Assembly: GCF_001753165.1 (NCBI RefSeq)
Contig: NZ_CP017448.1
Location: forward strand, 2,498,462-2,562,461
Direction: 5' to 3'
Origin: Acidihalobacter aeolianus
Lineage (GTDB): Bacteria > Pseudomonadota > Gammaproteobacteria > DSM-5130 > Acidihalobacteraceae
Length of the DNA: 64,000 bases
Below are positions 47,162 through 52,609 of the stretch, in pieces; position 1 is the stretch's first letter; every line of letters starts with the position of its first letter. The notes under the pieces are model-generated. The model was given only the letters and a program-made list of their open reading frames with translations. It did not search any database and was not told where the DNA came from. Made by a program: the position numbers and the translations under genes.

Positions 47162-47602
47162 TCAGATTTTGAAGTTGTAAATCATCCCGAGTTACGCATG
47201 CATCTTGCCGTTCTTTGCCGGCAGGAAACAGAGAATGGCGTAACTACCTTTCTTGAAATCCTCGACCAGATAGTTCACCTGATGCGATGCCTCACCGGTG
47301 ATGCCACCAATCGGCGCGCCAGGCGGCAGACCCGGGGGGAGCGACATAAAATCAGCAAGCGTCTTGTCATGTGAAAATTTAACGATGGCCATCTGGTGAT
47401 GCCGATGACCGTTATTGATAAATTTGAACAATGTGAAACCAGCAGAAATATGAGTGGACATAACGTATTTATATCCGTCTGCCACCACTTTAACCGTATG
47501 TATTCCCTTTAGCGGTTTAGCCGAAGACATGGATGCGTCTGCATTGGTACTTACGCCCACCATGAGCGCTGCCAGCAGGGCAGGTACACAGAGTTTTTTC
47601 AT
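47162..47602 (-). pseudogene. Exported cupredoxin-like protein with a nonsense codon near its end
   Basis: A signal peptide (MKKLCVPALLAALMVG, cleaved near ADA) precedes a beta-rich domain with NNGHRHHQMAIVKF and YAILCFLPAKNGKMHA, typical of copper-binding cupredoxin-like exported proteins. The frame then hits TAA at 47192..47194, but continues in frame as LGMIYNFKI to TGA at 47162..47164. Relatives end in a H..LGM..F motif, so the TAA is probably a recent nonsense mutation (or an error). The gene's start abuts an IS630-type element with only TA between, and no ribosome site is seen. Confidence 0.75.
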
Positions 47603-48696
47603 TACTCAGCAGTCAGAAATACAGGCAACAGAAGGATGCTCGAAGCATGACCTGACGAGCGCGGGATTGTCAGCCATGGATTGAAGCTGAGCAGCGACCC
47701 GGCCCTTGAGTTTTTCGCCCTTGCGTAATGGATTGCGCGCCACGCCTGTTCTCTTGGCGTGGCTCCAGACCAGCTCATCCGGGTTGAGGTCTGGTGCATA
47801 GCCCGGCAAGACGTGCAGCGTCAGCGCACCTGCCGTGCTGGCCACATACTCTTTGACGATGGCTTTTTTGTGCGCTGGCAAGCCGTCGATGATCAGATGC
47901 ACCGGCCGCCCGCGCTCGGCCATCATGTTCTTGAGCAGGTGCACGAACCATTCCCCGGTGAGGGCTCCTGGGTAGGTCTCGAACCAGAAGGCGCCCTTGG
48001 CGTTGACCGCCGAGGCCGCCGAGATCGACTGACGCTGACCGGGGCGTTCCACCACGGGGGTCTGGCCTTTAGCGCCCCAGGTCTTGCCATGCACGGCATC
48101 GGTGCGAAAGCCCGACTCGTCCCAGAAAAACACCTCGGCCTTCTCGCGCTTGGCGCGCCGGGCAATAGCCGGGTACGTTTCCTTGACCCAGCGCGCGATC
48201 GCTTCGGGATCACGCTGGTAGGCGCGCTGCAGGGGTTTTTGCGGTGTCAGGCCCACGCGGGCGAGCAAGGCCCCGATGCTCGCCCGCGACAGCGTCACCC
48301 CAAAGCGTTGGGCAACCAGCTCGCGCACGAGTTGGCGCGTCCACAGGCCAAAGTCAAAGCCGTACTGACGCGGGTTCTTGCCGTTGATCCACCGAAAGAC
48401 TCGGCGCTCTTGCGCAGCAGTCAGGCGGCGCGGGCGCCCTGTGCCCTTGCGCGAGAGCAAGGCGCGTTTGCCGTGCCCACGACCGTGGGCCTTGGCCCGT
48501 ACCTTGTAGGCCCACCGCGGTGCAGACCGAACGAGGTGGCCACCGCGGCTGGCGACTCGCCTTCGTTCATTCGCTGCAGGGCCAGCAGCCGCATCTCTTG
48601 CAGCGCAGCGCGCGACACCTTGCGTCCATCTCTCTTCAGGGAACATGAAGACAACCCATATCACCACTTGTTCCCTAATTTACTGACTTGTCAGTA
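47603..48696 (-). mobile_element. IS630-type insertion sequence
   Basis: Ends were placed by the transposase and by imperfect inverted repeats: TACTCAGCAGTCAGAAATA at the left and the inverse of TACTGACAAGTCAGTAAATT at the right. IS630 elements insert at TA, and TA is present at 47603..47604 and 48695..48696. It lies immediately upstream of the cupredoxin-like gene's start codon. Its transposase needs a frameshift. Confidence 0.75.
47606..48654 (-). pseudogene. IS630-type transposase, frameshifted
   Basis: The N-terminal HTH part begins MSSCSLKRDGRKVSR at 48654 and includes RMNEGESPAAVATSFGLHRG. The frame must slip by -1 near 48518 to continue as WAYKVRAKAHGRGHGK and the DDE core: FFWDESGFRTD, LIIDGLPAHK and PGYAPDLNPDELVW. 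One missing base explains it; no A-rich slippery site is present, so programmed slippage is unlikely. It may be an inactive copy. Confidence 0.85.
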
Positions 48697-49618: not shown

Positions 49619-49899
49619 CTCGACTCCTTTGCTGGTCAGGCCAACATTTTTTAATTAGGAATAATGATTACTAGCCTTTGATCCTTACATACCACGATTA
49701 AATTCTAGAACTCAGACTAGCATCGCGCGCGCACTGCGAACGCGATTTTCTACCTCACGAGGTGTTGTTACCTGCAAAACGAACCGTGACGAGAAAGCCC
49801 GCGGAACTCGACTGAAAGATTGCTGTCACATATCAGTTGTGCCTTTCGATTGGAGCGACTCTTGCCTGATGCAGGACCTCCCCCGAATTCGCATGGAGA
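49619..49899. promoter_or_regulatory. Divergent promoter region of sel1-like gene and MshEN-DUF202 operon
   Basis: A 281-base gap, AT-rich next to the Sel1 gene (49640..49720) and more GC-rich toward 49900. I see no strong -10/-35 pair. GGAGA lies directly before the ATG at 49900. No gene is supported. Confidence 0.4.
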
Positions 49900-51441
49900 A
49901 TGACGATACACTCACAAGCCCTTACGAAACAGGAACAGCTCTCCCACCTATCTGAGCATTACGGTTATCCGACCGTCGAATACGATGAAGGACTGACGGC
50001 GTCGCAATCCATTCTGAGACGACTGGACGTCGATACGCTGAGGTCCGAACTCTGGCTGCCCCTGTCATGGGACGAGGACAGCGCGGAGGTCGTCGTGTGC
50101 GATCCGGATGACCCTGCGCTGCTGCGCACCATTCAGGAAACCCTCGGTGTCGATGACATCGAATTCCGCGTCGCCACTCGCCCCGACCTGATCCGCCTGA
50201 TCGAGAACAGCGCGGATCTGAACGCCGAATTCCCTGTCACCGCCGGACGCACGCCGCTGGCAAAGGTGCGCACCTATCTGGCCGGGCTCCGCACCCGCTA
50301 CGCTGCCCAGCGGACCCAGTTCGCGCGCAGCAGGACGGGCTTGGCGCTCGCGCGCACCGGTCTTGCCTTCATCACGATCGCCGTGGCGTTTCTGCGTTTG
50401 TTCGGCGGTGGCGAGCTATTGTTCTTCGAGGTACCGCTGCTGGTATTGGGCGTTGCCGGCGTGATCGACGGCATCGTGTGGTATCTGCCGGCACGGCGCC
50501 ATACGAAAGAGATCAAGCCTTACCCGCCCTATGCGGTGCCTGAAGCATATTCCGCATTGCAAATCTCGGACCCCGGCGGCGCCATGGAATTCCACAGAAG
50601 CCCGATCGTGGAAAGTGCCGGGACGCTGCGCGAACACTGGGATGCCTTATCCCCCGTCGAGAGACGGCGCTTCCTGGCCAACGACCGCACCGATCTCGCC
50701 GAAGAGCGGACCGTGCTGGCCTATCTGCGAACCATGATGGCCAAGGCCCGAACGGGGCTCGCCTTCGCACGCACCGGCGTCGCCTTTGCCGGTATTGGCA
50801 TCGGCTTCATCCGCAAATTCCACCCCGGTCCCTGGACGATCTTCGACTGGGCGTTGATCGTCATCGGCACGGCGATGCTCGCCGAGGGTTTTCACTGGTA
50901 CCGCCCCGGTAGACATGCCGCCAATGTAGCGCTGCACACGGTCAGCAAGGCCAGCAAACGCAAGGGTTTGTGGGACACCATTTTCCCCTCGCAATGTCTC
51001 TACGCCGCGCACCATGATCCCGTGGCGGAGGCCAACTCGCCAGAAGCCCAACCTGGAGTCTGGGCCACCACGGGCCTCGCGCTGGAACGCACCACACTGG
51101 CCGACAAGCGCAACGCCATGTCGCACCTGCGCACGGTGATGGCGCGTTCGCGGACCGGGATGGCCTTCATCCGGACCGGCTTCAGCGTGATGTCCGTCGG
51201 CGCCGGCATGTTCATCTATTTCACGTATTTCGATCACGCCAACACATTCTGGACCGTATTCGACATCACCCTGGTCATCATCGGCTTGTATCTGATCGTG
51301 GACGGTCTGCTTTGGTATCTGCCGGCCGAACGCATCAAGCGGCGCTCGACCTTCTGCGATGCCAACTTCGAGATAGCCGACGCCGACTACAGCAAACCCA
51401 AAGTTGCCTGGGATAGGGATCATTACCGTCATGACGACTGA
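49900..51441 (+). CDS. Membrane protein: GspE/MshE N-terminal-like domain plus three DUF202-like units
   Basis: A 513-residue protein. Residues about 8-110 resemble the second half of a GspE/MshE N-terminal domain (LSEHYGYPTVEYDE, then LWLPLSWD and a VATRPDLIRLIE end). Three units follow. Each has a helix with Arg every seven residues (R117-R152 six times, R263-R291 five, R397-R425 five; consensus RTxLAxx), two membrane helices, and a closing D/EG..WY.P. Ordinary DUF202 proteins such as YidH have one unit and about two such Arg. The stop overlaps the next gene by 11 bases. Function unknown; a c-di-GMP or stress-linked membrane sensor is a guess. Confidence 0.85.
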   Translation: MTIHSQALTKQEQLSHLSEHYGYPTVEYDEGLTASQSILRRLDVDTLRSELWLPLSWDEDSAEVVVCDPDDPALLRTIQETLGVDDIEFRVATRPDLIRLIENSADLNAEFPVTAGRTPLAKVRTYLAGLRTRYAAQRTQFARSRTGLALARTGLAFITIAVAFLRLFGGGELLFFEVPLLVLGVAGVIDGIVWYLPARRHTKEIKPYPPYAVPEAYSALQISDPGGAMEFHRSPIVESAGTLREHWDALSPVERRRFLANDRTDLAEERTVLAYLRTMMAKARTGLAFARTGVAFAGIGIGFIRKFHPGPWTIFDWALIVIGTAMLAEGFHWYRPGRHAANVALHTVSKASKRKGLWDTIFPSQCLYAAHHDPVAEANSPEAQPGVWATTGLALERTTLADKRNAMSHLRTVMARSRTGMAFIRTGFSVMSVGAGMFIYFTYFDHANTFWTVFDITLVIIGLYLIVDGLLWYLPAERIKRRSTFCDANFEIADADYSKPKVAWDRDHYRHDD

Positions 51442-52609
51442 AGTGTCACCCTATATCGCCCTGGTGGAGAACGGCCTCCTCAGCGATCCACAGCTCGCCG
51501 CCGTGCAGCAAAGCGCGGCTGCTCGAGGTGTCGAGACCGAACGCGTGTTACTGAAAGAATCCGGAATCTCGCGCTGCGCGCTGCTGGAGGCCCTGGCCCG
51601 CCACTACGCATGCCGCTTCATTCAATACGACGAACGCATCCCGGTTCCCTCGCACCTGTTCGCCGGGCTGGACGCCAAAGTGTTGCGCGCCGGCAGGTGG
51701 TTCCCGGTGATGCAGCTGGGCGAGACAGTGATCGTCGCCGCGGCCGACCCGGCCAGCGAGACGATGCGGGAGCAGGTGCGGCAGCTCGTCCCGGCCAAGG
51801 ATTACGAATTCCGCGTCGCGCTCAACGAGGACGTGCGCTGGTACATCCAGGATTACCTGCACGCCGAGGCGCATCTGCTGATCGGCATCGAGCGCACCGG
51901 TCTCGCCTACTGGCGCAACACCATGGCCCTGTGGCGCACCAAGCTCGCCTGCCACCGAAACGGACATGCCCGCGCGCGGACTTCGATGAAGCTGCTCAGG
52001 TGGGGTCTGGCCATGGTGGCCCTATCCAATGCCCTGACGCACATCAAGGCCAACGTGCTCTCGCCATATCACTTTGCCCTCCTGGCGGCGGGCATCGTGA
52101 TGGCCTCCATTGGCCTTTACGACTATTTCAAGGTGCGCCGTTCGCGCATGGATCTCCCCTGCCAACATGCCCTGTTGGACATCACCAGCGAGAATATCCG
52201 CTTTACCAAGCGATACCATCTGGAAGAAGCGCCCGTCAAAGCCGAGGATGAAACGACTCTCGCCCAGCTCGCCGCAGCCATCCCGCATTACTGCTCCGTG
52301 CTGCGCCCGGTCCCGGCGAGCAAGGAACGCACCCACCTGGCGCGCGAGCGCAACATCCTCGCCGCACAGCGTACGATCGCCGCCAGCCACCGCACGTCCT
52401 ATGCACGCGCCAGAACCGGCCTGTCGCTGATTCGCACGGGTGTCTCCTTCATCGGCCTCGGCCTCGCGATGAACAAGATGCTGAGTACCAGCCCCTACAG
52501 CGTCACCGATTATTTCCTCATGATGGCGGGTTTCCTGATGCTGGTTGACGGCATCATCTGGTACGTGCCGGTGCGCCGGCTCAAATATGGCATCGGCCGC
52601 GAATCTTAG
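51431..52609 (+). CDS. Membrane protein: MshEN-like domain plus two DUF202-like units
   Basis: A 392-residue protein, partner to the preceding one. The N-terminal 145 residues resemble a whole GspE/MshE N-terminal domain: ENGLLSDPQLAAVQQ, then ISRCALLEALARHYACRFIQ, ending FRVALNEDVRWYIQDY. Two DUF202-like units follow, with Arg at R155-R190 (six, step seven) and R300-R335 (six, step seven), each leading into two membrane helices. The ATG overlaps the end of the previous gene (ATGACGACTGA), indicating tight translational coupling. No ATPase domain follows the MshEN-like part. Role unknown. Confidence 0.85.
   Translation: MTTEVSPYIALVENGLLSDPQLAAVQQSAAARGVETERVLLKESGISRCALLEALARHYACRFIQYDERIPVPSHLFAGLDAKVLRAGRWFPVMQLGETVIVAAADPASETMREQVRQLVPAKDYEFRVALNEDVRWYIQDYLHAEAHLLIGIERTGLAYWRNTMALWRTKLACHRNGHARARTSMKLLRWGLAMVALSNALTHIKANVLSPYHFALLAAGIVMASIGLYDYFKVRRSRMDLPCQHALLDITSENIRFTKRYHLEEAPVKAEDETTLAQLAAAIPHYCSVLRPVPASKERTHLARERNILAAQRTIAASHRTSYARARTGLSLIRTGVSFIGLGLAMNKMLSTSPYSVTDYFLMMAGFLMLVDGIIWYVPVRRLKYGIGRES

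Follow-up and report, generated by a model that had tools for sequence, protein, structure and literature searches.

The yeast VTC complex (Vtc1/Vtc3/Vtc4; PDB 7ytj, 8i6v, 9umg) is a 3:1:1 pentamer whose five first transmembrane helices (TM1) form a pore, lined by basic residues that stand seven apart (K24/R31, K622/R629 and K698/R705) (PMC9911596). Its units are of the DUF202/VTC1 type, and by weak profile match the same type of unit occurs in a pair of adjoining genes that we analyzed in a 64,000-nucleotide stretch of Acidihalobacter aeolianus DNA (hereafter the window). The two encoded proteins, P1 and P2, join an MshEN-like domain to DUF202 membrane units, each preceded by an arginine array with an exact step of seven residues. 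Ordinary bacterial DUF202 proteins (PF02656) share with them an ERTxLAxxRTxLA core and two transmembrane helices, but have a single unit, 2-4 heptad arginines and no MshEN domain, whereas P1 and P2 together hold five units with 5-7 heptads each. The N-terminal fold is common to the MshEN/GSPII domains of MshE, PilB, PilF and XpsE; unlike these proteins, P1 and P2 have neither an ATPase domain nor a motif for binding cyclic di-GMP (c-di-GMP), and P1 is cut to the C-terminal part of the domain. The features of the locus, based in part on AlphaFold 2 (AF2) models with their predicted local distance difference test (pLDDT) scores, are as follows.

49895..49898, forward strand: Shine-Dalgarno-like GGAG of P1, read directly
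49900..51441, forward strand: P1, C-terminal part of MshEN plus three Arg-heptad DUF202 units (513 residues from ATG 49900, or start at ATA 49906)
49906..49908, forward strand: ATA, probably the actual P1 start codon, judged from the upstream regions of orthologs
49963..50208, forward strand: MshEN domain of P1, residues 22-103, C-terminal part only (Pfam, VIA-align)
50248..50373, forward strand: Arg array 1, R117-R152, six heptads (continuous helix 117-168 in the AF2 model)
50356..50508, forward strand: DUF202 transmembrane pair 1, residues 153-203 (Pfam, AF2 model)
50665..50790, forward strand: Arg array 2, R256-R291, six heptads (helix 252-306 in the AF2 model)
50773..50934, forward strand: DUF202 transmembrane pair 2, residues 292-345 (Pfam, AF2 model)
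51088..51192, forward strand: Arg array 3, R397-R425, five heptads (helix 388-443 in the AF2 model)
51175..51339, forward strand: DUF202 transmembrane pair 3, residues 426-480 (Pfam, AF2 model)
51431..51441, forward strand: P1/P2 overlap of 11 bases, with equal or similarly tight spacing in orthologs
51431..52609, forward strand: P2, full MshEN-like domain plus two Arg-heptad DUF202 units (392 residues, start ATG 51431)
51455..51859, forward strand: MshEN/PilB-N-like domain of P2, residues 9-143 (Pfam E 1e-11, TIGR02538 E 1.1e-7, AF2 pLDDT ~90)
51893..52018, forward strand: Arg array 4, R155-R190 of P2, six heptads (sequence, alignment, AF2 model)
52001..52141, forward strand: DUF202-like transmembrane pair 4, residues 191-237 (AF2 model, unit profile)
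52328..52453, forward strand: Arg array 5, R300-R335 of P2, six heptads (sequence, alignment, AF2 model)
52436..52585, forward strand: DUF202 transmembrane pair 5, residues 336-385 (Pfam, AF2 model)

The five arrays contain 29 heptad-spaced arginines, 17 in P1 and 12 in P2, and continue the conserved ERTxLAxxRT motif of DUF202. None of 20,000 sequence shuffles matched the observed number of arginines in heptad runs of at least four. The strict step reported in an earlier note on this DNA thus holds, as do four of the five runs given there; the second run of P1 begins at R256 rather than R263, and with the missed residue the total rises from 28 to 29. The RTxLAxx form ascribed to the heptads is present but loose: T occupies +1 in 23, L occupies +3 in 15 and A occupies +4 in 24 of the 29. 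Each array carries a net charge of +4 to +9, which sums to +35.

Profile searches confirm that P1 combines an MshEN domain (PF05157, residues 22-103, E 8.8e-13, 48.5 bits against a cut-off of 23.1) with DUF202 (PF02656, several stretches, E 6e-15, 55.9 bits against a cut-off of 23.4), and a genome scan matches two of its units to DUF202 individually as well. In P2, MshEN is recognized at residues 68-146 (E 1e-11, 45.2 bits against 23.1) and the N-terminus matches the PilB N-terminal family TIGR02538 of NCBIfam (E 1.1e-7); the DUF202 match is barely above its cut-off (E 4.7e-5, 24.2 bits against 23.4). A unit profile finds unit 4 in its own genome at E 8.6e-32, unit 4 itself having been used to build that profile. 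The genome encodes one more DUF202 protein, of ordinary type. No ATPase family appears among the Pfam matches of P1 and P2, the NCBIfam PilB match is confined to the N-terminus, and the C-terminal parts consist of DUF202 units where GspE, PilB and MshE have their ATPase domain. Pfam profiles and AF2 models therefore bear out the architecture that had been read from the letters alone, with three units in P1 and two in P2; the missing ATPase partner (Pfam, NCBIfam) and the 11-base overlap, with the P2 ATG at 51431, were likewise read correctly.

The striped arginine helix that had been proposed also appears in the models. In the AF2 monomer model of P1 (pLDDT 75.8, predicted template modeling score (pTM) 0.69), the MshEN C-terminal part is accompanied by three continuous helices of 52-56 residues, each made up of an array and the first transmembrane helix and followed by the second transmembrane helix. 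The P2 monomer model (pLDDT 74.0, pTM 0.47) shows a complete MshEN-type domain and two such array-transmembrane helices. By VIA-align, the MshEN part of P1 superimposes on MshE (5htl) with a Z of 11.2 (104 aligned residues, rmsd 3.6); MshE, XpsE and PilF are found at Z 8-11, and a complex of the PilB N-domain with PilZ is also among the matches. The helical part of P1 drew matches to ABC exporters and designed repeats; with Z below 13, these reflect nothing more than rows of helical bundles of a common kind and were set aside as meaningless. A sequence search of the PDB gave no match for the P1 profile and only weak PilB/MshE matches for P2.

Alignments of 19 P1 sequences (down to 42% identity) and 17 P2 sequences (down to 38%) reveal that every heptad arginine is invariant, with one P2 site deviating solely through masked bases. 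By comparison, only 5 of the 26 other arginines of P1 (Fisher 8e-8) and 1 of the 24 others of P2 (Fisher 2e-7) are invariant, and lysine never replaces a heptad arginine in either set. In every ortholog pair that could be completely read, P1 holds three arrays and P2 holds two, unit counts being taken from the alignment plus the array pattern. Array lengths are nearly constant (6, 6-7 and 5 heptads in P1; 6-7 and 6 in P2). Together with arginines that stay invariant at ~40% identity, these near-fixed lengths indicate strong selection on the arrays. They also weigh against a functionally unremarkable growth of the ERTxLAxxRT motif by slippage of 21-base repeats, an explanation that we regard as quite improbable even though the arrays do extend the two conserved arginines of DUF202 and the DNA of a long array elsewhere in the family shows degenerate repeats with periods of 21, 42 and 63 bases. 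Such degenerate 21-base repeats were observed in the DNA of the L192/L173 array.

The four other genomes sampled from the family all carry orthologs of the pair, with P1 identities of 67-81%. A scan of 84,980 species genomes located carriers in Acidithiobacillus, Igneacidithiobacillus, Acidihalobacter and one Deltaproteobacteria metagenome-assembled genome (MAG); the scan used patterns from the N-terminal region of P1 and so misses carriers with a diverged N-terminus. The Acidithiobacillus order (Acidithiobacillales) yields P1 matches, some of them partial, in 16 of the 31 genomes sampled; further P1 matches occur in 5 of 46 genomes of the class of the Deltaproteobacteria MAG and in 7 of 297 of its phylum, two genomes being common to the latter samples. 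Among 299 sampled genomes of the window's own phylum, the A. aeolianus genome itself yields the sole full-length P1 match, and there were no matches in plasmids (tblastn with P1), phages (tblastn with P2) or viral contigs (P1 profile). A tree places 14 gamma-type P1 sequences on one side of a fully supported branch; its deeper order is unsure owing to two long branches, and it does not fix the direction of transfer. A role specific to acidophiles was dropped as a claim, since additional pairs sit in genomes of unknown habitat. The neighboring Sel1 gene, put forward earlier as a conserved partner, is not conserved beside the pair in relatives and was dropped as unrelated.

Much longer arrays occur in proteins with a single DUF202 unit. 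The earlier estimate that ordinary DUF202 proteins have about two such arginines is right for the basic type, and arrays in other DUF202 proteins comprise 2-5 heptads (9 at L123); in the phylum of the Deltaproteobacteria MAG, however, single-DUF202 proteins have arrays of 12, 15, 17, 22, 29 and 38 heptads. Three of these, at L193 3269-4390 (+), L192 2397-3386 (-) and L191 4760-5578 (-), contain 38, 29 and 22 consecutive RTxLAxx heptads. These stalk proteins and the REC-DUF202 fusions described below resemble P1 and P2 in array and DUF202 pair, and differ in having one unit with 12-38 heptads and no MshEN domain. A Leptolyngbya plasmid cluster (L151 2362-5398) holds four DUF202 genes, one of whose products fuses ten near-identical RTELAE heptads to a sodium/bile acid symporter (SBF) domain.

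In 181 pooled heptads of relatives, in which position a is arginine by construction (181), position d is L or M in 155 and position e is A, S or G in 180. Exact spacing over as many as 38 heptads indicates a left-handed coiled coil rather than a flat amphipathic helix, because the arginine stripe of a straight helix with 3.6 residues per turn would drift by ~20 degrees per heptad, or ~two turns over 38 heptads. Designed open helical barrels provide a parallel: they are built on LxxIAxZ heptads with Ala at e (CC-Pent to CC-Hept; PMC8503928), and thus share with the arrays the heptad, the small e residue and an a/d core. The designed barrels are soluble peptides with Leu/Ile at a and Ile at d, whereas the arrays have Arg at a and mostly Leu/Met at d.

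This regularity bears on the functions first suggested for the locus, namely a device under the control of c-di-GMP, or a helix with affinity for lipid headgroups or nucleic acid. In favor of such functions, the MshEN fold is confirmed and the arrays of P1 and P2 are strongly basic. An exact period of seven over 12-38 heptads, however, is ill-suited to a flat membrane surface and fits a coiled coil, so that the lipid-headgroup helix is not supported. Domains of the MshEN type that bind c-di-GMP contain two 24-residue RLGxx(L/V/I)(L/V/I)xxG...LxxxLxxQ motifs (PMC5013675). Neither a strict nor a relaxed form of this motif is present in any of 36 N-terminal domains (19 from P1, 17 from P2), and P1 of the window retains the C-terminal part of the domain alone, without the N-terminal c-di-GMP subdomain. 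Binding of c-di-GMP by these domains, as had been proposed, is consequently unlikely. Charge-neutral arrays in some relatives speak against a generic polyanion clamp. Taken together, we give these functions the lowest probability of the explanations considered.

The reading that we favor, tentatively and at well below even confidence, is modeled on VTC: an Arg-ringed, VTC1-like pseudo-pentameric conduit or gate, with the rings extending the pore into the cytoplasm to pass or hold an anionic ligand. Its support comes from the invariant arginines, the constant 3+2 count, the kinase-REC genes shared with single-DUF202 loci (below), the coiled-coil period, the long helices of the AF2 models and the pore chemistry of VTC. 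Among membrane proteins of the PDB, Vtc1 gives the best match to the unit profile, a weak one (E 0.28-0.44) that places R31 on a heptad arginine. VTC has five units with basic TM1 residues seven apart; in P1 and P2 all arrays are heptad-spaced, and 3+2 units are counted in sequence. P1 and P2 would be co-produced from the overlapping genes and assemble 1:1, so that the 3+2 DUF202 units form one pseudo-pentamer, like the five VTC1-type units of yeast VTC. The first transmembrane helix of each unit would extend into the cytoplasm as a helix of 5-7 heptads, and the five helices would pack in parallel into a coiled coil in which position a is Arg, d is Leu/Met and e is Ala/Ser. Rings of five arginines, ~10 angstrom apart, would then form the lining of a tube that opens into the membrane pore, through which the device might bind, pass or gate its ligand, and the MshEN domains, insensitive to c-di-GMP, might serve as lids for docking or gating. 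What the data show are the heptad spacing and invariance of the arginines, the unit counts, the long helices of the monomer models and the link to the operon; the 1:1 assembly, the pentamer, the lumen-facing arginines and anion transport are our inference.

Several observations weigh against such a conduit. The Vtc1 sequence match is weak, VTC is not listed by Foldseek with the P1 model, and the models are monomers, that of P2 with a pTM of 0.47. VTC has three transmembrane helices per unit, against two in the AF2 models of P1 and P2; it also carries SPX and polymerase domains and has no long Arg stalk, which P1 and P2 do have. Array length across the family, from 2 to 38 heptads, is more reminiscent of a stalk or ruler than of a binding site, some relatives' arrays are charge-neutral, and no conserved transport gene adjoins the pair.

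The same comparison raises the possibility that the pair is a polyphosphate channel or receptor, a bacterial equivalent of VTC fed by polyphosphate kinase. The VTC polyphosphate pore is itself lined by basic residues seven apart (PMC9911596), and PPK1 is present in all eight Acidihalobacter and Acidithiobacillus carriers tested. Conversely, neither PPK1 nor PPK2 was found in the five deltaproteobacterial carriers tested, the VTC polymerase domain (PF09359) is absent from all 13 carrier genomes searched, and no phosphate gene was observed beside the pair. Many carriers are MAGs, in which a missing PPK or kinase gene may partly reflect incompleteness. Because five carriers lack both kinases, polyphosphate is disfavored as a universal ligand, and we consider this more specific proposal unlikely.

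Gene neighborhoods also bear on the role of the pair. In the phylum of the Deltaproteobacteria MAG, genes for a membrane histidine kinase (~480 residues) and a REC protein (~130 residues) lie downstream of the pair or of a single-DUF202 gene. The kinase follows the P1-P2 pair at L061, L153, L181, L182, L183, L185 and L186 (REC was checked in part of these), and kinase and REC follow one single-DUF202 stalk gene at L191, L192 and L193. The kinases are homologous across both types of locus, and their sensor region is recognized at E < 1e-70 in carriers of this operon type and in genome G414. At E 1e-6 the kinase was not found in the A. aeolianus genome or in seven other Acidihalobacter and Acidithiobacillus carriers. 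The associated kinases (L182 9082-10590, L192 945-2393) have a sensor-region motif in common, NxxxLExRxxEKNYFL, which is invariant. PPDK_N/PEP-utilizer genes lie around several Arg-heptad loci (L181 3170-6073 and 10621-13224; L182 1468-4188; L186 11355-13961; L153 1-897). At L157 6936-7967 (+), L158 6717-7775 (+) and L159 2648-3721 (-), a twelve-heptad DUF202 protein with a C-terminal REC domain adjoins a PPDK_N/PEP-utilizer protein of ~860 residues.

In the main rival explanation the arrays would be a coiled-coil signaling or structural stalk, which relays conformational signals or keeps partners away from the membrane and for which DUF202 is a mere anchor, without transport and with the arginines at a as an internal, mostly salt-bridged specificity feature. 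We consider such a stalk nearly as likely as the Arg-ringed conduit; an Arg-lined tube or a stalk, carried by a membrane assembly of five parts, is thus the most likely product of the two genes. Its association with histidine kinase and REC is kept, REC is fused to a 12-heptad array, array lengths in relatives vary widely (12, 15, 17, 22, 29, 38), and Glu/Lys occupy positions c, f and g of long arrays, one of which is charge-neutral. Moreover, MshEN-type domains are docking modules in PilB and GspE, and the PilB N-domain-PilZ complex is among the fold matches. On the other hand, all five arrays of P1 and P2 are strongly basic, their arginines are not exchanged for lysine, conservation at position a far exceeds that of the remaining helix, and a pure stalk needs no Arg extension of the pore-facing arginine of the DUF202 core.

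Under the Arg-ringed conduit reading, the device would be the membrane partner of the histidine kinase and REC protein in the deltaproteobacterial relatives, and in Acidihalobacter and Acidithiobacillus the kinase would have been lost or never acquired. Since kinase-REC genes follow either the pair or one gene, the 3+2 linked units appear to stand in for one presumed self-assembling protein. If that single-unit protein is a homopentamer, as five-unit VTC suggests, the 3+2 arrangement makes an equal ring from two chains. This shared ring is inferred, and its strength is the constant number five.

The start of P1 appears unusual. The window contains both an ATG at 49900, one base past the GGAG, and an ATA at 49906, seven bases past it. 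Of 19 distinct upstream regions of Acidihalobacter/Acidithiobacillus type, 16 have no sensibly placed ATG, GTG or TTG and offer only an AUH codon. Most orthologs have GGAG, GGGG or GAGG, then seven bases (nine in two cases), then ATA, ATT or ATC, a pattern seen at L005, L006, L007, L051-L058, L063, L078, L079, L082 and L087 as well as at window positions 49895-49908; a clear ATG start is found in L008 and L059 only. P1 therefore probably starts at a near-cognate AUH codon, here ATA 49906. The infC gene of E. coli also uses an AUH start codon.

Two further observations concern neighboring sequences. Near P2 in genome G004, L012 2-721 (+) encodes repeated amphipathic segments (LAKEGMELAAKFATEGMELGYEFATHGMDLGYEFA) with no Arg stripe. 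Within the window, the translations show a transposase-like open reading frame (47606-48667, reverse strand) and, four bases downstream of its end, a small secreted-protein-like one (47192-47602, reverse strand; MKKLCVPALLAALMVGVSTNADA...), which may thereby be separated from its promoter.

No described system of Arg-heptad MshEN-DUF202 design was found in the literature searched, in agreement with the earlier note, and the Arg-striped, five-helix, two-gene design is apparently new to the literature. A broader proposal, which we find rather doubtful, is that the family represents an unrecognized class of pentameric DUF202 pores with cytoplasmic Arg-ring coiled-coil tubes of 5-38 rings, controlled by two-component systems or by docking; in the pair described here, a homopentamer would have become a covalently linked 3+2 pseudo-pentamer for the conduction or storage of an anionic ligand. 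With as many as 38 exact Arg heptads, the arrays would also rank as a natural coiled coil of unusual regularity, of use in designing barrels with a charged lumen, and the 3+2 split predicts a stoichiometry that can be checked. If the model is true, the DUF202 family, widespread among bacteria and so far with no function assigned to it, would gain from an extreme natural variant a testable Arg-ringed pore model with the yeast VTC channel as its reference.

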